Origin: a virus
IMG/VR virus record: IMGVR_UViG_3300037068_000133
Span: 1-27,794 of that record
Length of the DNA stretch: 27,794 nt
Direction: 5' to 3' (one strand)
Under the pieces are notes generated by a model. It had not been told where the DNA came from. It worked only from the letters and a program-made list of their open reading frames with translations, and did not search any database. The position numbers and the translations under genes were made by a program. This document shows, piece by piece, positions 154-16,608 of the stretch (its first letter is position 1; every line of letters begins with the position of its first letter).

Positions 154-366
154 GTGAGCGCATTCGGTAAGTCCGCCACCGCCGCCGTGGTGACCGCCGG
201 GAAAGCGATCCGCTGGGGCTGGCACATCGGCCCGGCCGTGACCGGGATGGGCGCGGTGTCGGCGGCGATCGGCGGCCTGGTGCAGACCTTCGCCGGGACG
301 GGCGGCCTGTGGGCGGGCCTGTTCGTGGCCGGTGTCTTCGCGATCGCGATCGACTTGAAGGGCTGA
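154..366 (+). CDS. Small membrane protein between terminase and portal
   Basis: A 70-residue protein with a GTG start and GGAGG at 145-149 as ribosome binding site. Residues about 25-45 and 48-66 are hydrophobic and rich in Gly and Ala, consistent with two membrane helices. It ends in a short charged tail (DLKG). It lies between the terminase and the portal and is followed after two bases by the portal start. Two-helix proteins of this size can be holins, but the lysis genes of this phage lie about 17 kb away, so I do not assign that role. Function unknown. Confidence 0.6.
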   Translation: MSAFGKSATAAVVTAGKAIRWGWHIGPAVTGMGAVSAAIGGLVQTFAGTGGLWAGLFVAGVFAIAIDLKG

Positions 367-368
367 GG

Positions 369-1613
369 ATGCCCGGGGTGCTGGCCCGGCGGCCGCCGGA
401 GCGCGTGCTGGAAGGCCGCGTCGTCGGCAACCCGAATCGCGAATCGCGATTCCTCACGTTCATCAGCCCGCCGGTCGGCGCCTACACCCAGGCGCTGCAG
501 GACTGGGCGAGCTCGGATCCCGAAGGCGCGATGCGCCAGGCGACGGTCTGGACGTGCGTGAACAAGGTCGCGCTGTCCATGTCGGTGATGCGCCCGCTGC
601 CCTACTCCGGCCCCGTCGTCGGTTTCGGCCAGGCGACCCGGCTGCCGCCCGGGCCGATGCTGTCCAAGCCGTCCTCAGACCGGTATATGGGCGCGTTCAC
701 CTACTCGGCGTGGCTGTCGCTGATGCTGCGCGGGAACGTCTACGGGATCATCGCGGCCCGTGACCCTTTCGGCCTGCCGTTGCAGATCGAGCTGCAGCAC
801 CCCGACCAGATGCGCGTGCGGCGGCTGCAGCACGACACCACCGGCCAGAAGGCCGGCGAGTACGAATACCGGCTGCGCAACACCGTGGTGGACCCGGCCA
901 AGGTGTGGCACAAGGCGATCTTCCAGATGCCCGGCTCCCGGGTAGGCATGTCCCCGATCGAGTACGCCGCCCGCACCACGCGCACGACCCAGGCGGCCGA
1001 GCAGTTCGGCCTGTCATGGTTCGAGGACGGCGGCCACCCGTCGGGTCTGCTGACGAACGCGAACAAGCCGGAGATCAAGCAGGAGCAGGCCCAGGGCGTC
1101 AAGGCCCGGTTCATGGCCGCCGTCCGCGGCTCCCGCGAGCCGGTGGTGCTCGGCGACGGGTGGAAGTACGACCAGATCTCGGTCAAGGCCGAGGAGTCGC
1201 AGTTCCTGAACACGATCCAGGCGACGGCCAGCGACATCTGCAAGTTCTTCCTGATGAAGCCCCAGCACGCCGGCATCGCGCAGCAGGGGTCGGCGATCAC
1301 CTACGCCAACATCGAAGACAACATGCTCGACTTCCTGGCCTACCCGATGACGCCGTGGATGCAGGAGTACGAGACCTGGCTCGCCGAGTGGGTGCCGAGC
1401 AGCCAGTACGTGAAGCTGGACAGCTCGCCGCTGCTGCGCACGGACATGCTGAGCCGGATGCAGGCCTACCACATGATGATCGGCTCCCGGGCGTTCACGC
1501 AGGACGAGATCCGGGAGATGGAAGACCGGCCGCCGCTGACCCCGGAGCAGAAAGCCGAGATCGACGCTATGCCGATGGTGCCGCCCATCCCCGGCCCGAA
1601 GAGCGGGAGCTGA
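369..1613 (+). CDS. Phage portal protein (HK97 family)
   Basis: A 414-residue portal protein, forming the ring at the capsid vertex through which DNA enters and leaves. The ATG at 369 is preferred because AAGGG lies seven bases upstream, and it follows the upstream stop by two bases. Family features in order: TVWTCVNKVALSMS near residue 60, a WLSLMLRGNVYG stretch where HK97 portals carry their conserved LLL/GNAY segment, SRVGMSPIEYA in the middle, a QFLNTIQATASDICKFF helix and GSAITYANIEDNM. The C-terminal region (TQDEIREMEDRPPL) matches the usual end of these portals. The length is typical. Open frames extending upstream of 369 have no ribosome binding site. Confidence 0.93.
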   Translation: MPGVLARRPPERVLEGRVVGNPNRESRFLTFISPPVGAYTQALQDWASSDPEGAMRQATVWTCVNKVALSMSVMRPLPYSGPVVGFGQATRLPPGPMLSKPSSDRYMGAFTYSAWLSLMLRGNVYGIIAARDPFGLPLQIELQHPDQMRVRRLQHDTTGQKAGEYEYRLRNTVVDPAKVWHKAIFQMPGSRVGMSPIEYAARTTRTTQAAEQFGLSWFEDGGHPSGLLTNANKPEIKQEQAQGVKARFMAAVRGSREPVVLGDGWKYDQISVKAEESQFLNTIQATASDICKFFLMKPQHAGIAQQGSAITYANIEDNMLDFLAYPMTPWMQEYETWLAEWVPSSQYVKLDSSPLLRTDMLSRMQAYHMMIGSRAFTQDEIREMEDRPPLTPEQKAEIDAMPMVPPIPGPKSGS

Positions 1614-1614
1614 C

Positions 1615-3093
1615 ATGGCCGCAAAGTATGACGCCGACGAACTCAAGAAGCTGCTGGCCAAGGGCCACGCGATCAAGAACGCCGACGGTGACCCGTCCTA
1701 CCCGATCGCCGACGAGGAGGACCTCGACAAGGCGATCAAGGCGGTCGGCCGCGGCGGCGCCGACCACGACTCGATCCGCAAGCACATCATCAAACGTGCG
1801 AAGGCCCTCGGCCTGTCGGCCAAGGTCCCGGACACCTGGAATGCGAACGGGTCGGTGAAGACGGCCAGCCGCGTCCCGCTCGAGCTGCGCCGCCAGCGCC
1901 GGTCGTCGATGCTGGCCATCCCCGAGCGCCTGTCGCTGGCGTTCGCCGCCGGGAACATCGAGATGCGGGCGAAGGCCAACGGCACCGGCGGCACCTCATA
2001 CCGGTTCGAGGGATACGCGGCGACGTTCAGCGACCCGTTCGAGATGTGGGACATGTGGGGCGAGCCCTACACCGAGGAGGTCGAGCCGGGCGCGTTCACC
2101 CGCACCCTGGCCAACAACTGCGACACGGCGTTCCTGATCGGCCACTACGACGCCGGGATCCTGATGGCCCGGACCAAGTCCGGGACCATGACCCTGTCGC
2201 AGGACAGCGGCGGCCTGGCGGTCCTGGTGCCCGCGATGGACGGCTCCCGCGAAGACGTCCGCGCTCTGGCCTCCGCGGTGGACCGCGGCGACATGGACGA
2301 GATGTCCTGCGCGTTCATCACCCGCCAGCAGAAGTGGGACGACGCCTTCGAGCACCGGTCGATGATCGAGATGGACCTGCACCGCGGCGACGTCTCCGCC
2401 GTGGTGTTCGGCGCCAACGCCGGCACCGCGGGCAGCTCGATGACCGCGCTGCCCACCGAGGCGCTGACGCTGCGCCGCCCGGTGTCGGTGCGGATGCCCA
2501 CGGCCCCGTACCGGGTGAACGAGGGCGAGGACACCCTCTGCGGCCAGTGCCAGTCCGCCAACGACGCCGACGCCAGCTTCTGCGACCAGTGCGGCGCGAA
2601 GATGGCCGGCCAGCCCGGCGACAGCACCGTCACCGGCGAGGACGAAACCCAGCAGTGCCAGAGCTGCTTGTCCATGAACGCGACCGACGCGAAGTACTGC
2701 GACCAGTGCGGCAGCTCGCTGGCCGGGATCCGGCCGTGGAAGGCAGCTGGCGGCGGCTACCTCGACTGGGCCGCGGCCCGCCGCGGCGAGAAGCGCGCCC
2801 AGGACGAGATCGTGGACATGTCCGGGGCACCCGACTACAACCCGGTCCCGCACGCCTACGACCCCGGCGCGCTGCAGTGCCCGAACGACGACTGCACCGT
2901 GCCGGGCGGGGCAAAGAACAGCCCGGACGCGAAGTTCTGCGACCAGTGCGGCTACCCGATGTACGCGGGGAACGGCGTCGAGGTCGTCGATGACTCCGGG
3001 GTGGTCGAAGACATCGAGGGCGCGGCGATGTCAGACGCCGAGCTGCTCGCCCACCGCCGCCGCGAACTCGAACTCCTGGAGCTGAGCGCATGA
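1615..3093 (+). CDS. Prohead maturation protease with C-terminal zinc-ribbon array
   Basis: A 492-residue protein starting one base after the portal stop. Residues 1-80 are a small charged helical domain (DADELKKLLAKGHAIKNADG) like one seen at the front of other actinophage proheads proteases. Residues about 112-285 are an S78-type protease: candidate catalytic His177 in LIGHYDAG and Ser231 in DEMSCAF, followed by the VSAVVFGANAG strand. It should cleave the scaffold part of the capsid precursor. The unusual part is residues 305-450, with three CxxC-type zinc ribbons: C309/C312/C323/C326, C348/C351/C362/C365 and C422/C427/C442/C445. All three share a DA-K/S-F/Y-CDQCG end. The tail is acidic. 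Protease identity is firm; the role of the ribbons is unknown. Confidence 0.88.
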   Translation: MAAKYDADELKKLLAKGHAIKNADGDPSYPIADEEDLDKAIKAVGRGGADHDSIRKHIIKRAKALGLSAKVPDTWNANGSVKTASRVPLELRRQRRSSMLAIPERLSLAFAAGNIEMRAKANGTGGTSYRFEGYAATFSDPFEMWDMWGEPYTEEVEPGAFTRTLANNCDTAFLIGHYDAGILMARTKSGTMTLSQDSGGLAVLVPAMDGSREDVRALASAVDRGDMDEMSCAFITRQQKWDDAFEHRSMIEMDLHRGDVSAVVFGANAGTAGSSMTALPTEALTLRRPVSVRMPTAPYRVNEGEDTLCGQCQSANDADASFCDQCGAKMAGQPGDSTVTGEDETQQCQSCLSMNATDAKYCDQCGSSLAGIRPWKAAGGGYLDWAAARRGEKRAQDEIVDMSGAPDYNPVPHAYDPGALQCPNDDCTVPGGAKNSPDAKFCDQCGYPMYAGNGVEVVDDSGVVEDIEGAAMSDAELLAHRRRELELLELSA

Positions 3094-3431
3094 CCGACAT
3101 CACTGCCGAGGTCACCGGCTGGGTCGCCGGCGAGATCGCCAAGCAGCGGTTCGGGGAGGACTTCGGCTACGCCGTCAGCCTCGGCCTGGCCGCGGTGCAG
3201 ACCCCGCAGGGCGTGGCGCAGGTGCCGATGTGGACCCTGCTGATCACCGCCCGCAACCCGCTGCTGAAAGAGGGCCCGCTGTATCACGGGCCGGTGCCGA
3301 TCGGCACGCCGCGGCCGGAAGAGAAAAACGTCCGGGCCGAGGTGACGAACGGTCTCAAGGCGCTGCGGGACCTGGCCGCGTCCAAGCTGTCCGCCGGCAA
3401 CGGCCGCGCGCCGGCCGGGGCGCGGCGGTGA
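3090..3431 (+). CDS. Small phage protein, unknown function
   Basis: A 113-residue protein whose ATG overlaps the protease stop codon (ATGA), indicating translational coupling. The N-terminal half has alternating strands (YAVSLGLAAVQTPQGVAQVPMWTLLITARNPLL). The C-terminal half is helical (VRAEVTNGLKALRDLAASKL) with a basic, Ala/Gly-rich tail. No cysteine cluster, signal peptide or membrane segment is visible. It lies between the protease and the capsid gene, so a head-related role is plausible, but I recognise no family. Confidence 0.7.
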   Translation: MTDITAEVTGWVAGEIAKQRFGEDFGYAVSLGLAAVQTPQGVAQVPMWTLLITARNPLLKEGPLYHGPVPIGTPRPEEKNVRAEVTNGLKALRDLAASKLSAGNGRAPAGARR

Positions 3432-3674: not shown

Positions 3675-3786
3675 CCCGCAGGCCCGCAGCTCCCCGGCAG
3701 GGCGGCTGCACCCCGCGGTTCTGCCGCCACCACACGAGATGACGCGCCCACGTCGATGCGTGCCTCGTGTGAAGGGGATACCTGCC

Positions 3787-5460
3787 GTGGATGAGCTGAT
3801 CCGCAAGCTGCTGGAGCGTCGCGCTGCCCTGGTCAAGGCCGGGAAGGAAGCGCTGTCGAAGTCCGCCGAGTCCCTCGCCGCGGGCGGCCCGGCCGAGGAC
3901 CGCAAGGCCCACGACGAGGCCGCCGACAAGGCCACAGCGGACATCAAGGAAATCGACACCCAGGTCGAGAAGCTCAAGGCCCAGCAGGCCTCAGACAAGC
4001 GCGCCGCCGACCTCGCGGCCGCCACCGGCGGCACCGGCGAGGAGGAAGGCCGCGCTGGCGGTTCCGGTGTCCAGGTGACCAGCGAGCCGACCATGTACGG
4101 CCGCCACTCGGGCCGGTCGTTCTTCCTCGACATGGCCCGCGCCAACCCGGCCCTGGGCAACGACCCCGAAGCCCGCGGCCGCCTCGACCGGCACCGCCAG
4201 GAGCTCGACGTCGAACTGCCGAAGCGGCGCGCGGCCCGCGCGAAGGCCGCGACCGCGCAGCTGGAGCAGCGCATGGCCCGCTCCCAGCGCGAGGAACGCG
4301 CCTATGACCGGTTCCTCGGCGAGGGCGGCAAGCCGTTCCGCGGCGGCCAGGAGTCCCGGGCACTGTCGCGCACCGACGGGCAGGGCGGGTTCTTCGTCCC
4401 GCCGCTGTGGCTGGTCGACGACTACATCCCCTACCTGCGGGCCGGCCGGACGTTCGCCGACCTGTGGATGAACCTGCCGCTTCCCTCAGGCACCGACAGC
4501 ATCAACATCCCCCGGGTGGTCCTCGGCGCCGCGACCGGCCCGCAGTCCGCAGACGGGCAGCCGCTGGTCAGCCGCGACATCCAGGACAACTTCGTCAACG
4601 CCCTGGTCCGCACCGTGGCCGGCCAGCAGGACGCGGCGCTGCAGCTGCTCGACCAGTCGCCGGTCGCCTACGACCAGATCCTCTTCAAGGACCTGATGGC
4701 CGACTACGCCATGAACCTGTCCGGGCAGCTGATGCTCGGCTCCGGCGTGAACGGGCAGCTGACCGGCCTGTACCCGACCGGGATCCTCGCGGCAACCGGC
4801 GCCAGCACGACCGGGTTCCACGTGCGGAACGCGGCCACCAAGTGGACCGACCCGACGAACCCGAACTTCTACCAGTCGGCCGCGCAGGTCATCTCCAAGG
4901 TCTCCCGGAACCGGTTCCGCCGGCCGACCGCCCTGGTCACCAACGACGCCGCCTGGTTCGGGATGGCATCGTCCACCGACAGCCAGGGCCGGCCGCTGGT
5001 CGTCGCCACCGCGGCGGGCCTGGGTTACAACCAGTCCGCCGGTGAGGACGGGTCGCAGAACGTCGAGGGCCCGGTCGGGCACATCTTCGGGGTGCCGTGG
5101 TCGGCGGACCCGAACATCCCGCTGACCTTCGGCGGGGCGACCACCGCCCCGGTGATCGGCGCGATCTCCCAGGGCAACGTGGCCCCGATCGACGGCACCG
5201 GCGCCGGGAACACGCAGACCCCGGCGATCGCGATGGTCGCCGACGACCTGTTCCTGTGGGAAGGCGAGCTGCGCACCCGGACCCTGTCCGAGGTGCTGTC
5301 CGGGACGCTGCAGATCCGCTTCCAGGTCTACGGCTACGCGGCCAGCATGCCGAACCGCTACCAGGACTCCAGCGGCAACCTGCTGTCCTACGGCGAGTAC
5401 AACACCGTCGCCACGGCGGGCGGGATCCTGTCCACCGCCGGCGGCCTGTCCGGCTTCTAA
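3787..5460 (+). CDS. Major capsid protein with N-terminal scaffold domain (HK97 fold)
   Basis: A 557-residue capsid precursor. The GTG at 3787 is preferred because GAAGGGG lies at 3771-3777; an upstream ATG at 3739 has no such site. Residues 1 to about 195 are charged, Ala/Lys/Glu-rich and helical (LLERRAALVKAGKEAL, DIKEIDTQVEKLKAQQ), typical of the delta/scaffold domain that HK97-type proteases remove. The mature capsid probably begins near LSRTDGQGGFFVPPLWLVDDY (about residue 200), a standard start for this fold. The following strands (FADLWMNLPLPSG, SINIPRV) and the C-terminal region (FQVYGYAASMPNRYQD) fit the family. The total exceeds the HK97 protein because of the long scaffold. Confidence 0.93.
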   Translation: MDELIRKLLERRAALVKAGKEALSKSAESLAAGGPAEDRKAHDEAADKATADIKEIDTQVEKLKAQQASDKRAADLAAATGGTGEEEGRAGGSGVQVTSEPTMYGRHSGRSFFLDMARANPALGNDPEARGRLDRHRQELDVELPKRRAARAKAATAQLEQRMARSQREERAYDRFLGEGGKPFRGGQESRALSRTDGQGGFFVPPLWLVDDYIPYLRAGRTFADLWMNLPLPSGTDSINIPRVVLGAATGPQSADGQPLVSRDIQDNFVNALVRTVAGQQDAALQLLDQSPVAYDQILFKDLMADYAMNLSGQLMLGSGVNGQLTGLYPTGILAATGASTTGFHVRNAATKWTDPTNPNFYQSAAQVISKVSRNRFRRPTALVTNDAAWFGMASSTDSQGRPLVVATAAGLGYNQSAGEDGSQNVEGPVGHIFGVPWSADPNIPLTFGGATTAPVIGAISQGNVAPIDGTGAGNTQTPAIAMVADDLFLWEGELRTRTLSEVLSGTLQIRFQVYGYAASMPNRYQDSSGNLLSYGEYNTVATAGGILSTAGGLSGF

Positions 5461-10654: not shown

Positions 10655-13072
10655 ATGGCCGGGAACCTGGTCAAGTCGGTCATGCTCAAGATCGTCACCT
10701 CCGACGGCGACAGCCAGGCCCGGCTCGACGCGATCACCGCCAAGGCCGACGAACTCGGCCGCCTGCACCCCGACATCAAGGTCCGGATCGACACCGCGGC
10801 CGCCTCGGCGAAGGTGTCGGTGCTGCGCGCCGAGCTGAAAGCGGCCAGCAGCGACGCCGGCGACGGCCCGGGCCTGCGCGGCCGGCTGATGGCCCTCGGC
10901 TCCACAGCCGGGGTGATCTCCGGGGTCGGCGACGCGTTCGGCGCGTTCAACGCCGAAGCCAGCATGGGGGCCCGGATCATGTCCGGGTTCTCCCTGGCGA
11001 CCGGGCTGCTCGAAGGGCCGATGGCCGGGCTGATCGTCGGCGTCGGCGGCCTGGCCTCAGGGCTGGCCGCCGCCGGCGCCGGGCTGGGCGTGTTCGGCGC
11101 CGTCGCCAAGTCGGTGTTCACGACCGCGTCGACGGCCGCCACGGCGTACGCGGCCGCCCAGCAGCGCCTTGCCCTGGCCACCACCGCGGCGCAGCGCACC
11201 TCCGCGCTCGCGGCCGAGAAGGCCGCCCTGTACGGGCTGACCGGGGCGCAGAAGCAGCTGGCGATGCAGATCGCCGGCGCGCACAAGGAATGGCAGGGTT
11301 TCGTCGCCGCGGCCACGCCCGGGGTATCGAAGGTGATCGCCGGCGGCCTGCGGCTGATCCCCCAGGTGCTGGCCGACATCAAGCCGCTGCTCGCCCCAGT
11401 CGAAGGTGCCCTGTCCGGGCTGGTCTCCAAGCTCGGCAAGGGCCTGGGGTCGGCCGGGTTCATGAACTTCATCTCCATGATGGCGGCCAACACCGGGCCG
11501 GCCATCACCAAGCTCGGCACCGCCATCGGCCATATCGCCGTCGGGTTCGGCGGGATCCTGCGCGCGTTTATGCCGTTCTCGCAGATCATCCTGTCCGGCC
11601 TGGACTCGATCACGGCGAAGTTCGCGCACTGGGGGCAGACCCTCAGCTCCCACTCCGGATTCCAGTCTCTCGTCTCGATGGCCCGGGCGGACATGCCGTA
11701 TGTGATCACCATCGTGAAGAACCTGGGCGGGGCGATCGTCCACCTCGGCGGGGCGATGACAGGCCTGTCGACGTTCTCCAACTCCAAGATGCTGCTGCAG
11801 ATGGCCGCGCCGCTGTCCCAGCTGGTCAACGCCCTGTCTCAGGCGAACCCGGCGCTGCTGCGGCTGGGCCTGTACGCCCTGGCCGCCGGGTCGGCGTTCG
11901 GGAAGCTGAAGGCCGTCTTCGGTGAGGGCGGCGCGATCGGCAACCTGGTCTCCGGCGTCAAGGGCGGCGTGGCCGCGTTCGGGAACCTGCGCTCCGGGAT
12001 GGCTTCCACGGAAGCCGCCGCGGCGGCCGAGACCGGGATCTGGGGGACGCTCGGCGGCGGCATCATGACCGCTGTCACCGCAGTGAAGTCGTGGACCATC
12101 TGGTCGAAGATCGCCGCCGTGGCCACCCGGGTGTGGACCGGGGTGCAGGCAGCTTTCGACGTCGTGATGGACGCCAACCCGATCGCCCTGGTCGTCATCG
12201 CGGTCGCCGCCCTGATCGCCGGCGTGATCCTGGCCTACAACCACTTCAAGATCTTCCGCGAGATCGTCCAGGTTGCCTTCAAGCCGCTGATCGCCGCCGG
12301 TGAAGCGGTGGTGTCGTTCTTCAAGACCCACTGGCGGCAGATGCTGTCGATCCTGACCGCGCCGTTCACCCTGGCCATCAGCTTCATCCGCGGGCACTGG
12401 CAGCAGATCACCGCGATCGTCGGCGACGTCATCAGCTGGGTCAGGTCACACTGGCCGCTGCTCCTGTCGATCATGACCGGGCCCATCGGGGCGGCCGTGA
12501 TCTTCATCGTGCAGCACTGGCACCAGATTCTCTCCGGCGCCCAGTCCATGATCACCGCCGTGGTCGGCTGGTTCCGGCGGCTGCCCGGCATGATCCTCTC
12601 GGCGGTCGGGAACCTGGGCCGGCTGCTGTGGCAGGGCGGCGTCAACATCGTCATGGGCCTGGTCCACGGCATCGAATCCGTCGCGATGGCACCCGTCCAC
12701 GCGCTCGGGTCGATCGTGTCCGGGATCCGCAACCTCCTCCCGTTCTCCCCGGCCAAGACCGGGCCCCTATCGGGATCCGGGAGCCCTGACCTGGCCGGCC
12801 GGAAGATCCCGCTGATGCTCGCAGCCGGGATCGACGCGGGCTCCGGCGCGGCGGCCGCGGCCGCCAACCGGATGGCCGGGGCGGTGGCCGGCGGCGTGCA
12901 CGGGGCCCGCGCTGGCACCACCGCCGCGGCGGGCGGCCAGCAGCTCGTGCTGGAGATCCAGCCGGGCGGCCACGGAGGCCTGGACGCCCTGTTCATCACG
13001 TGGCTGCAGAACGCCATCCGGGCGAAGGGCGGCAGCCCGGACATCATCATCCGGAAGGTGAAGTTCGCGTGA
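10655..13072 (+). CDS. Tail tape measure protein
   Basis: An 805-residue protein. The ATG at 10655 is chosen over GTG at 10649 because AAGGGG at 10644-10649 fits only the later start. The N-terminal part has MLKIVTSDGDSQARLDAITAK and long helices. Residues about 85-175 are Ala/Gly-rich and hydrophobic. Near residue 500, DANPIALVVIAVAALIAGVI is the membrane-like segment common to actinophage tape measures, followed by Trp-rich repeats (HWRQMLSI, HWQQITAI, HWPLLLSI, HWHQILSG). Near residue 692, RNLLPFSPAKTGPLSG is the usual C-terminal motif. It sets tail length; at about 1.5 angstrom per residue this implies a tail near 120 nm. Confidence 0.92.
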   Translation: MAGNLVKSVMLKIVTSDGDSQARLDAITAKADELGRLHPDIKVRIDTAAASAKVSVLRAELKAASSDAGDGPGLRGRLMALGSTAGVISGVGDAFGAFNAEASMGARIMSGFSLATGLLEGPMAGLIVGVGGLASGLAAAGAGLGVFGAVAKSVFTTASTAATAYAAAQQRLALATTAAQRTSALAAEKAALYGLTGAQKQLAMQIAGAHKEWQGFVAAATPGVSKVIAGGLRLIPQVLADIKPLLAPVEGALSGLVSKLGKGLGSAGFMNFISMMAANTGPAITKLGTAIGHIAVGFGGILRAFMPFSQIILSGLDSITAKFAHWGQTLSSHSGFQSLVSMARADMPYVITIVKNLGGAIVHLGGAMTGLSTFSNSKMLLQMAAPLSQLVNALSQANPALLRLGLYALAAGSAFGKLKAVFGEGGAIGNLVSGVKGGVAAFGNLRSGMASTEAAAAAETGIWGTLGGGIMTAVTAVKSWTIWSKIAAVATRVWTGVQAAFDVVMDANPIALVVIAVAALIAGVILAYNHFKIFREIVQVAFKPLIAAGEAVVSFFKTHWRQMLSILTAPFTLAISFIRGHWQQITAIVGDVISWVRSHWPLLLSIMTGPIGAAVIFIVQHWHQILSGAQSMITAVVGWFRRLPGMILSAVGNLGRLLWQGGVNIVMGLVHGIESVAMAPVHALGSIVSGIRNLLPFSPAKTGPLSGSGSPDLAGRKIPLMLAAGIDAGSGAAAAAANRMAGAVAGGVHGARAGTTAAAGGQQLVLEIQPGGHGGLDALFITWLQNAIRAKGGSPDIIIRKVKFA

Positions 13073-16000
13073 GCGTCTACGACGTGGTGGTAGACGCCGA
13101 CTCGCCGCTGCTGTGGTGGAAACTCGCCGACCCCGTCAGCTCGGCGGCGGCCGGGGATTCCAGCGGCGCCGGCCACGGCGGGACCGCCACAGCCGTCACG
13201 TTCGGCGCGGCCGGGCCGATCGCGGCGGACGCCACCGAGACAGCCGCGTCTTTCAACGGCACCACCAGCACCATCACGTCTACCTACAAGCCGGCGCTGG
13301 CCGCCGTCACCGTCGAGGCGTGGGTCAACAACCTCGGCAACGCCGCCTCGGGCAGCCCGCGGCTGGCCGCCGACTCCCACACCGACGCGGACAACAACGG
13401 CTTCCAGCTGATGCTGTTCACCTCCGCGGGCCAGTTCTTCGCCCAGGTGTGGTTCGGCACCGGCGCGGCGAACGCGAACGTGGCATCGGCGGTCGCGCTG
13501 CCCGCGACCGGGTGGGTGCACCTGGCGGCGACGTGGGACGGGACGACGGTCCGCCTCTGCCAGAACGGCGTCCAGGTCGCCTCCCAGGCCTTCTCCGGCG
13601 CCATGTCCGCCGGGTCCGCGGCCGGGACCGGCGCCGGATTCAACCCCACCTACAACGGCGACTTCTTCAAGGGCGCCATCGGCCAGGTCGCCATCTACGG
13701 GACCGCGCTCTCACCCACCCGGGTGTCGGTGCACCACTGGGCCGGGCTGACCTCAGCTTTCCCGCAGGGCCCGCTGGGCGTGACCGCCGAACTGTTCGGC
13801 AACGGCTGGACGGACATTACCCCCCAGGTCCTCGAGCCAGGCAACCCTCTGCCGCCGGCGGTGACGATCACCCGCGGCCGGCCAGACGAAACCAGCCAGG
13901 CCACCGCCGCCGCGGCGGCATTTCGGGTGGACAACACGGCCGGCCAGTTCACCGCCCGCAACCCGGTCGGCCCCTACTACCCCTACCTGGGGCGCAACGC
14001 GCCGATCCGGTGGTCGGTGCCCGCGGCCGCGCCGTTCCTGCGGCTGGAAAACGACTCCGTCTCCTACATCAGCGCGCCGGACACCGCTGGCCTGTCGATC
14101 ACCGGGGACACCGAGATCCAGATCGACATCCAGCCGACCAGCTACGTCGCCGCCACCCTCGCGTCGAAGTGGGCGGTGGCCTCAAACCAGCGGTCGTGGT
14201 GGCTGGGCCTGAACGCTGACGGAACCGTCAGCTTCTCCTGGTCGGCCAACGGCACCGCCGTACTGTCGGCCACGTCGACGCAGCCGCTGCCGGGCCCGCT
14301 CGGGCGGATCGCCATCAAGGTCACCCTCGCCGTCGCGACCGGCACAGTCACCTTCTGGAGCGCGCCGTCGATCGGCGGCTCGTGGACGCAGCTGGGCAGC
14401 ACCATCGTGGCGGGCGCCACCTCCGTGTTCGACTCCACTGCCCCGGTCACGATCGGGTACAACGCCGACCAGGCGGCCCTGACGGGCGTGCTGGGTGTCC
14501 TGGGCGCCGCCGCCGGTGTCGCGTGGGCCCCCGCCGCCTGGACCGGGCTGAACGGCGCCGTGAACGAGCTGCGGCTCCTGTCCGGCATCGGCGGCACCCT
14601 CAAGGCCAACCCGGTCTTCACCACCGCCCCGGCCGGTGCCGCCAGCCTCACCGACGCCCAGGCCAACGTGTGGACCCTCGTCGGGACCGCCGAGCTGTCC
14701 GCCCGCGACTACCGTTTCCACGGCGAGCTGTCCGCCCTGCCGACCGAGTGGGACCCGACCGGGCACGACGTGTGGTCGCCGATCACCGCCAGCGGCCTGC
14801 TGCGCCGCCTGTCGCAAGGCTCCCAGCCTCCCGTCACCTCCCCCATGACCCGCGGCTGGCAGCAGGTCACCGGCATCTACGCCCCCGTCGCCTACTACCC
14901 GTGCGAAGACAGCGCCGGCGCCACCCAGATCGCCTCCGGCCTGCCCGGCGGCCCGCCCATGTCCGTGCAGGGCACGGCCACGTTCGGGTCGAACTCCTCA
15001 TTCGCCGGATCCGGGCCGATCCCCGCTTTCAGCAAGTCCAGGTGGGCCGTCAACATCCCCGCCTACACCAACCCGGGCGCCGCACCGGCGAACGTCGTCC
15101 GCTTCCTCCTGGTCGTGCCTTCCGGCGGCGACACCGACACCGGGACCATCCTGCGGTTCTACACCTCCGGCACCGTCCACCACGTCGAGCTCCAGTACGG
15201 GGTCTCCAGCAGCGGCAGCCTGCAGGTCGTCGGATACGACTCGAACGACACCCAGCTGTTCGCCTCCGGGTTCATCAACTTCTCGGCGGTCGCCAAGGGC
15301 CTGACCGGCAACCCCGCCTACGTCGAGGTGGCGCTCACCAAGAACGGCACCGGCGTCGACTGGCACTGCAACGTCCTGTTCCCAGGCGACTCGGTCCAGC
15401 ACGGCCTTTCGGCCACGCAGGCCTCAGCGACGATCGGCACCGTCTCGCGGGTCGTCTTCGACGTCCACTCGAACATGACCTCCGCGGCCGGGCAGTGGAG
15501 CCTGCAATCCTCCTACGACCCCCTCGGCCTGGCCTCCGGGGTCGTCGCCGGCCCGTTTCAGGCATGGCTCGGGGAAACCGCGGCGCTGCGGTTCGCGCGG
15601 ATCTGCGCCGAGCAGGGCGAGCCCGCCCGGGTGTTCGGCTACCCGGCCGCGTCGATGCCGATGGGCACCCAGGCGATCGACTCGTTCATCAACCTGCTGC
15701 AGTCCTGCGAGGACGCCGACCGGGGCCTGCTGGGCGAGCCGCGCCAGTCCCTGGCCCTCGGCTACCGGACGCTGGCCGCGATGGTCAACCAGACCCCCGA
15801 CCTGGCCCTCGACTACTCCGCCGACCAGGTCAGCCCGCCGCTGTCACCGATAGACGACGACCAGCACACCGTCAACGACGTCACGGTCTCCAACGTGGAC
15901 GGCTCCAGCGCCCGCGTCACCCTCGCCGACGGCACCGCGATGTCCACCGGCAGCCCCCCGAACGGGGTCGGCAGCTACGCGAACAGCTACTCCGTCAGCA

Positions 16001-16608
16001 TCGGCAACGACGCGATGCTCGGCGACGTGGCCGGGTGGATCCTGCACGTCGGCACGGTGAACGAGGAACGCTACCCGTCGATCGCCGTGGACCTGGCCGA
16101 CAGCGCCCTGGCCGGCATCGCCGCGGCCGCCCGGGCCGCCGACGTCGGCGACTACCTGGCCGTGACCAATCCGCCGGCGTTCCTGCCACCGGGCACCATC
16201 AAGCAGATCGTCTACGGCGCCACCGAAACCCTCGGCGACTTCGCCGAGCAGATCGCATGGAACACCGTCCCGGAGTCCCCCTACGAGGTGGCCGTCGTCG
16301 CCACCGGCTCCGCCGCCGCGGACTACCACATCGACACCGACGGGTCGTCCCTGCACGCCGGCATCACCAGCGGCGCCACCTCGATGCAGGTGGACAGCGG
16401 CGCCGGGGTCACCCTCTGGACGACCACGGCGGGCGACTTCCCGTTCGACGTGATGATGGGCGGCGAGCAGATCACCGTCACCAATATCACCGGCGCCAGC
16501 TCCCCGCAGACCTTCACGATCACCCGCTCCGTCAACGGCGTCGTCAAGGCCCACACCGCAGGCGAGGACATCCGTCTCGCCTTCCCCGCGATCCTGGCCC
16601 TGACGTAG
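13069..16608 (+). CDS. Large tail-tip protein with lectin-like (LamG) domains
   Basis: A 1179-residue protein with GTG overlapping the tape measure stop (GTGA). Residues about 10-225 are a concanavalin/LamG-like domain (LLWWKLADPVS, VTVEAWVNN, GWVHLAATWDGTTVRL, GAIGQVAIYG). Residues 235-320 match the distal tail motif of actinophages (DITPQVLEPG, PAVTITRGRPDETSQ, FTARNPVGPYYPYLGRNAP). A second LamG-like segment spans about 320-500 and a third about 602-800 (YAPVAYYPCEDSAG). From about 827 (LRFARICAEQGEPARVFGY) it resembles tail hub proteins. It probably forms the tail tip and binds cell-surface glycans. Fusion of these parts in one chain is typical of large actinophage tail proteins but three such domains is rich. 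Confidence 0.8.
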   Translation: MSVYDVVVDADSPLLWWKLADPVSSAAAGDSSGAGHGGTATAVTFGAAGPIAADATETAASFNGTTSTITSTYKPALAAVTVEAWVNNLGNAASGSPRLAADSHTDADNNGFQLMLFTSAGQFFAQVWFGTGAANANVASAVALPATGWVHLAATWDGTTVRLCQNGVQVASQAFSGAMSAGSAAGTGAGFNPTYNGDFFKGAIGQVAIYGTALSPTRVSVHHWAGLTSAFPQGPLGVTAELFGNGWTDITPQVLEPGNPLPPAVTITRGRPDETSQATAAAAAFRVDNTAGQFTARNPVGPYYPYLGRNAPIRWSVPAAAPFLRLENDSVSYISAPDTAGLSITGDTEIQIDIQPTSYVAATLASKWAVASNQRSWWLGLNADGTVSFSWSANGTAVLSATSTQPLPGPLGRIAIKVTLAVATGTVTFWSAPSIGGSWTQLGSTIVAGATSVFDSTAPVTIGYNADQAALTGVLGVLGAAAGVAWAPAAWTGLNGAVNELRLLSGIGGTLKANPVFTTAPAGAASLTDAQANVWTLVGTAELSARDYRFHGELSALPTEWDPTGHDVWSPITASGLLRRLSQGSQPPVTSPMTRGWQQVTGIYAPVAYYPCEDSAGATQIASGLPGGPPMSVQGTATFGSNSSFAGSGPIPAFSKSRWAVNIPAYTNPGAAPANVVRFLLVVPSGGDTDTGTILRFYTSGTVHHVELQYGVSSSGSLQVVGYDSNDTQLFASGFINFSAVAKGLTGNPAYVEVALTKNGTGVDWHCNVLFPGDSVQHGLSATQASATIGTVSRVVFDVHSNMTSAAGQWSLQSSYDPLGLASGVVAGPFQAWLGETAALRFARICAEQGEPARVFGYPAASMPMGTQAIDSFINLLQSCEDADRGLLGEPRQSLALGYRTLAAMVNQTPDLALDYSADQVSPPLSPIDDDQHTVNDVTVSNVDGSSARVTLADGTAMSTGSPPNGVGSYANSYSVSIGNDAMLGDVAGWILHVGTVNEERYPSIAVDLADSALAGIAAAARAADVGDYLAVTNPPAFLPPGTIKQIVYGATETLGDFAEQIAWNTVPESPYEVAVVATGSAAADYHIDTDGSSLHAGITSGATSMQVDSGAGVTLWTTTAGDFPFDVMMGGEQITVTNITGASSPQTFTITRSVNGVVKAHTAGEDIRLAFPAILALT

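Follow-up and report, generated by a model that had tools for sequence, protein, structure and literature searches.

The prohead protease gene and its neighbours

The window analysed here is a 27,794 nt stretch of soil phage DNA (positions 1–27,794 of IMG/VR record IMGVR_UViG_3300037068_000133), in which the gene of a prohead protease lies between those of the portal protein and the major capsid protein (MCP). The genes and the protease domains that precede its tail are as follows:

309..1613, + strand: portal protein gene (PF04860), 5' neighbour of the protease gene
1615..3093, + strand: S78/HK97-type prohead protease with a zinc-ribbon tail, 492 aa (ORF, Pfam and PHROG matches)
1657..1839, + strand: N-terminal small helical domain of the protease (structure model, comparison with relatives)
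1969..2430, + strand: Peptidase_S78 catalytic domain (PF04586, structure model, conserved H177 and S231)
3739..5460, + strand: MCP gene (PF05065, phrog_2263), 3' of the protease gene

Residues 119–272 of the protease match PF04586 in Pfam with 70.6 bits (gathering cut-off 21), and a PHROG search also matches the protein to phage head-maturation protease families; its score with the HK97 equivalog TIGR01543, 57.4 bits, is just below the curated cut-off of 59. S231 (nt 2305–2307) is invariant in 36 aligned sequences and H177 (nt 2143–2145) is at least 90% conserved, and we take these, from what is known of the S78 family, to be the catalytic Ser and His. AlphaFold (36 aligned sequences) models the protease domain with pLDDT of about 71–94, and the first matches of the whole model in a fold search are Epstein-Barr virus protease (E = 1.8e-3, probability 0.99) and T4 gp21 (E = 5e-2, probability 0.89), with low TM-scores and no match at E ≤ 0.001. 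The N-terminal small helical domain, which may be DUF6582-like, matches no family of Pfam or NCBIfam at E < 1. It is optional: some relatives lack it, some have a domain of another kind at the N-terminus, and in others a domain of this type comes after ribbon 2.

In the window MCP about 200 residues precede the capsid fold, and mycobacteriophage MCPs are 33–35% identical to it. A small gene of unknown function (window 3090–3431) lies between the protease and MCP genes, as it does in locus L004; its homologue is 3' of the MCP gene in L008, L035 and L073 and 5' of the portal gene in L007. Further along, window 13000–16608 encodes a 1202-residue protein with a strong match to phrog_5313 (unknown function) and a phosphodiesterase-family match as well.

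The zinc-ribbon tail

The features of the tail, which follows the S78 domain, are these:

2491..2538, + strand: conserved leader R-x-P-T-x-P-Y-x4-G-E, 5' of ribbon 1 (alignment of relatives)
2515..2754, + strand: recombined cassette with ribbons 1 and 2, residues 301–380, borders approximate (identity comparison)
2539..2595, + strand: zinc ribbon 1, C309-x2-C312-x10-C323-x2-C326-G, residues 309–327 (Pfam, alignment, model)
2656..2712, + strand: zinc ribbon 2, C348-x2-C351-x10-C362-x2-C365-G, residues 348–366 (Pfam, alignment, model)
2878..2952, + strand: zinc ribbon 3, C422-x4-C427-x14-C442-x2-C445-G, residues 422–446 (alignment, model)
3034..3087, + strand: predicted C-terminal helix, residues 474–491, ending LELLELSA (AlphaFold, profile alignment)

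The initial annotation, made from this sequence alone, had placed three four-Cys ribbons in the interval 2530–2965 (residues 305–450), with a shared CDQCG end, differing spacing and a longer third member, and all of this is correct: apart from residues 169 and 232, the cysteines of the protein are at 309/312/323/326, 348/351/362/365 and 422/427/442/445, all three ribbons finish in CDQCG, and ribbon 3 is Cx4C-x14-CxxCG where ribbons 1 and 2 are CxxC-x10-CxxCG. Its description of every ribbon as a CxxC...CxxC module is thus accurate for ribbons 1 and 2 and has to be amended for the first knuckle of ribbon 3. Zn_Ribbon_1 (PF13240) matches with 46.2 bits (gathering cut-off 25, E = 3e-12) and the double zinc ribbon DZR (PF12773) with 41.8 bits (cut-off 27.3, E = 1e-10), while the RanBP2-type zinc finger PF00641 stays below its cut-off of 27 with the whole protein (14.1 bits) and with the tail alone (20.9 bits). 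Chance CxxC pairs are ruled out by residue shuffling, since among 20,000 shuffled versions of the protein 10 contained a single ribbon and none contained two or three.

Conservation was examined in a tail alignment of 25 sequences, in which the relatives are 37–72% identical to the window protein. In ribbons 1 and 2 all eight cysteines are shared by every one of the 25 tails, the outcome opposite to the loss of conservation that the initial annotation had named as telling against it, and those of ribbon 3 are nearly so. In each of 122 profile-aligned ribbons, Cys 3, Cys 4 and the Gly after them are retained, and Cys positions 1 and 2 show Cys or an alignment gap and no other residue. Besides the cysteines, the leader PY-x5-E, an Asn, an Asp-Ala pair and the CDQCG end are kept across unrelated proteins. 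Judged from these alignments the ribbons are real and selected, and because the Cys quartets are invariant we infer that each ribbon binds one zinc. A catalytic zinc in the ribbons was considered and rejected; they lie outside the S78 domain, and S78 is a serine protease family.

Structure prediction, which had been proposed as a check, shows three beads modelled with confidence and joined by disordered linkers, followed by a C-terminal helix (the tail was also modelled alone); pLDDT is about 88–92, 77–87 and 78–81 for ribbons 1, 2 and 3 and below 50 in the long linkers (36 aligned sequences). A Foldseek search with the tail model found RanBP2- and eL40-type zinc ribbons as weak matches, none of which passes E 0.001, and a PDB sequence search with the tail gave zinc-ribbon matches that are all weak.

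Separate translation of the ribbon part, which the initial annotation had also listed as contrary to its reading, could in principle begin at an internal start in the manner of lambda C/Nu3, and an ATG at residue 294, directly 5' of the array in the window and in six relatives, might seem to favour this. That codon is, however, ACC, ACG or GCC in 18 of the 25 sequences, and the window ATG has no ribosome-binding motif 5' of it. Since the candidate start is unconserved, a separately translated ribbon protein was rejected as extremely improbable; the codon comparison indicates that the array is translated as part of the protease and that separate translation is not general.

Distribution and exchange of the ribbon module

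Viral contigs hold many relatives of the window protease, and at least one ribbon was found by profile in 52 of 66 complete S78-bearing ORFs, a biased set made up of the best 80 matches plus the ribbon-search matches. Their architectures include three ribbons, ribbon 3 alone, ribbons 1 and 2 alone, and an arrangement in which a small helical domain separates ribbon 2 from ribbon 3. At the site of ribbon 3, L005, L007 and L089 carry a His-rich block, L077 a mixed Cys/His block, and L058, L074 and L092 another Cys pattern; His-rich blocks also adjoin ribbons on the ClpP-type proteases of L020, L166 and L168. Conserved His-rich blocks of the type HAPMxGxHxHxHxAYGxQGG...HxHEHxH occur, beside ribbons or instead of them, on S78 and ClpP-type head proteases in L005, L007, L020, L043, L059, L166 and L168.

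The identities of different parts of the protease do not run in parallel. Between the window and L028/L004 the S78 domains are 82–87% and the C-terminal segments 82–85% identical but ribbons 1–2 only 51%, whereas between the window and L030 the corresponding values are 65%, 47% and 90%, and DNA identity changes level near residues 300 and 380. Portal and MCP identities to the window (81% and 67% for L004, 40% and 49% for L030) track the protease and not ribbons 1–2. Because the ribbon identities break in this way from those of the S78 domain, portal and MCP, sequence comparison indicates that ribbons 1–2 have been exchanged as a unit between distantly related phages. Ribbon 3 is part of another, C-terminal segment. 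Triplication in place can therefore account for the array only in part, and the view of the repeats as duplications was too simple.

A ribbon-only scan of viral contigs with a 37-residue profile that includes the leader PY-x5-E-x3-C confirmed 105 loci, of which the best 80 were kept, so that the proportions given here are approximate; loci were grouped by profile and phmmer, tied to PHROG and Pfam results. In 65 of these best 80 the ribbon is on a head-maturation protease, namely S78 proteases of several groups (50), phrog_859/18402, named portal and head maturation protease in PHROGs (7), the ClpP type (PF00574, phrog_2976; 5), phrog_21715 (2, one of which also matches phrog_80) and phrog_15531 (1). 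In most carriers the ribbons follow the protease domain, and in L018 and L158 they precede it. Two of the best 80 have the ribbon in the N-terminal region of an MCP and five are stand-alone double-ribbon proteins, whose genes are near the portal gene in L134 and L143 and upstream of scaffold and MCP in L165. Eight are other proteins; those of L149/L150 and L164 have head genes as neighbours, and L141, L146, L160, L162 and L167 (five of the best 80) have no evident head-gene context. In L147 a single polypeptide contains an S78 domain (90–250), two ribbons (289–356) and a capsid fold (864–1144). This distribution, as seen in sequence profiles, marks the ribbon of about 37 residues with its leader as a portable phage module, and its presence on several unrelated protease families suggests that it was joined to them repeatedly and independently.

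Some of these carriers deserve separate mention. L153 and L159 group with L147, and all three are single polypeptides of 1052–1150 aa. L146, L160, L162 and L167 form one family of unknown proteins with the same ribbon, and in L146 the ribbon gene comes after a phrog_850 'RNA-binding protein' gene. The ribbon-bearing portal/protease-family protein at L140:3851-7039 has Hint and LAGLIDADG matches, which probably mark an intein.

At the sensitivity used, the tail alone had no match in 50,697 isolate-phage records; the ribbon-bearing queries L019, L020, L134, L152 and L147 either had no match or matched protease domains, helicases and hypothetical proteins, with no ribbon-bearing head protein among the isolate-phage matches listed; and a search of genome contigs returned only unrelated zinc-ribbon proteins. 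The nearest isolate relatives of the window protease are the capsid maturation proteases of Omegavirus (cluster J) and Marvinvirus, such as Mycobacterium phage Thibault gp9, in which the S78 domain is followed by an acidic tail of 130–209 residues with at most one Cys and hence no ribbons where the window tail has three. That prohead proteases as a rule stop shortly after the catalytic domain is thus only partly true, in view of these further residues; and since the Omegavirus and Marvinvirus enzymes manage with such tails, S78 proteases as a group can do without the ribbon tail.

A proposed role in head assembly

What does the tail do? The ribbon occurs on proteases that differ in fold, on either side of the catalytic domain, and also on MCPs, which speaks for a part in location or assembly and not in catalysis. 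We propose that the tail acts inside the prohead as a zinc-stabilised docking or retention device, a reading whose chances we judge to be evenly balanced and in which both the zinc and the partner are deduced. A flexible tail of three independently folded Cys4 ribbons and a terminal helix would bring the protease into the assembling prohead, would keep it there through numerous weak interactions with a partner that these phages have in common, and would be lost as the protease digests the prohead contents; it would act much as a capsid-targeting tag does, with zinc ribbons in place of a short peptide. In favour of docking, the ribbons are linked to heads, on several unrelated maturation proteases and other head proteins, and ribbons 1–2 are swapped although portal and MCP differ, as expected of a portable function. 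The earlier suggestions of scaffold or portal binding, or of keeping the protease inside, may be correct and fit the other occurrences of the module. Against docking stand the five ribbon loci that lack an evident head-gene context and the isolate-phage proteases that manage with Cys-poor tails. A close fit of the ribbons to portal or MCP is argued against by the free exchange of the cassette between phages whose portals and MCPs have diverged; the partner may instead be some conserved feature, nucleic acid or a host factor, or the ribbons may bind to one another. Metal binding would be the constant feature, as His-rich blocks replace ribbon 3 in L005, L007 and L089.

That same interchange of ribbons, His-rich blocks and small helical domains, together with their variable number, the mobility of the ribbon 1–2 cassette and the acidic Cys-poor tails of the nearest isolates, would also be expected if the tail were under loose constraint, as a metal sponge or a spacer that resists proteases. 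Beads and His-rich blocks would then only keep a long disordered tail in solution and safe from cleavage, or store zinc, and would have no particular partner. We consider this unlikely, as the retention of PY-x5-E, Asn, Asp-Ala and CDQCG across unrelated proteins seems to go beyond the needs of zinc binding. Zinc ribbons of such size can bind nucleic acid, and in that case they might tie protease action to DNA packaging or to prohead RNA; the weak Foldseek matches include RanBP-type fingers that bind single-stranded RNA, and other ribbon carriers weakly match the phage 'DNA binding protein' family phrog_16351. However, no fold match passes the threshold given above, the ribbons and linkers have many acidic and few basic residues, and the known phage proteases act earlier, those of HK97 and T4 working before DNA enters the prohead. 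We found no positive support for the DNA binding mentioned in the initial annotation, and regard a nucleic-acid role as quite improbable. Nor does it seem at all likely that the tail is an autoinhibitory or timing device, in which zinc-bound ribbons block the protease as long as it has not gathered in the prohead and are then cut off. Attachment of the module to proteases of unrelated folds could be read in this way, and T4 gp21 provides a precedent, its N-terminal segment blocking the active site until self-cleavage (PMC9958956), but the ribbons stand before the protease domain in L018 and L158 and after it in most loci, and they also occur on MCPs and stand-alone proteins that have no protease to inhibit.

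As the same kind of bead occurs in uncultured phages on unrelated proteases and on further proteins that build the head, it looks like a portable part employed during virus head assembly. More tentatively, and with a probability that we would put as rather low, this one small ribbon type may serve uncultured phages widely as a prohead-targeting module that depends on zinc. Recombination would have carried it from phage to phage, and it would have been fused independently to maturation proteases of several unrelated kinds, to scaffold regions of MCPs and to stand-alone head proteins, all of which it would recruit into the assembling head. To our knowledge, the way in which maturation proteases enter the prohead and stay there has been worked out in few phages, and a small, recognisable module found repeatedly on proteases that differ in fold, on MCP N-terminal regions and on S78-MCP fusions would make the question of recruitment directly testable. 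Genes of head assembly could also be recognised by it in uncultured phages, and it would imply that zinc has a part in capsid assembly, which is absent from the literature searched. In that literature (open-access papers) we found no description of zinc ribbons in prohead or head-maturation proteases; the conserved feature described here is an S78 prohead protease with a zinc-ribbon tail, made from a module common to several head-protease families.

With the HK97-family prohead proteases (PF04586, TIGR01543, phrog_80/7053) the window protein shares the S78 domain, the conserved His and Ser and the portal-protease-MCP order, and it differs from them in its additional C-terminal tail of about 200 residues with three zinc ribbons; in the fold search T4 gp21 and herpesvirus assemblin come near the head of the list, with low TM-scores and no match at E ≤ 0.001. 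Its ribbons share the CxxC-x10-CxxCG type with PF12773 and PF13240, but they add the PY-x5-E-x3 leader at fixed spacing, are located in phage head proteins, and in ribbon 3 open with a Cx4C knuckle. In T4, a targeting peptide common to several internal proteins places them, and GFP fused to it, in the prohead core (PMC9958956). The likeness to this capsid targeting sequence is one of proposed role only, that of a portable tag on several proteins destined for the prohead interior; the T4 tag is a short peptide, whereas that of the window is a zinc ribbon.
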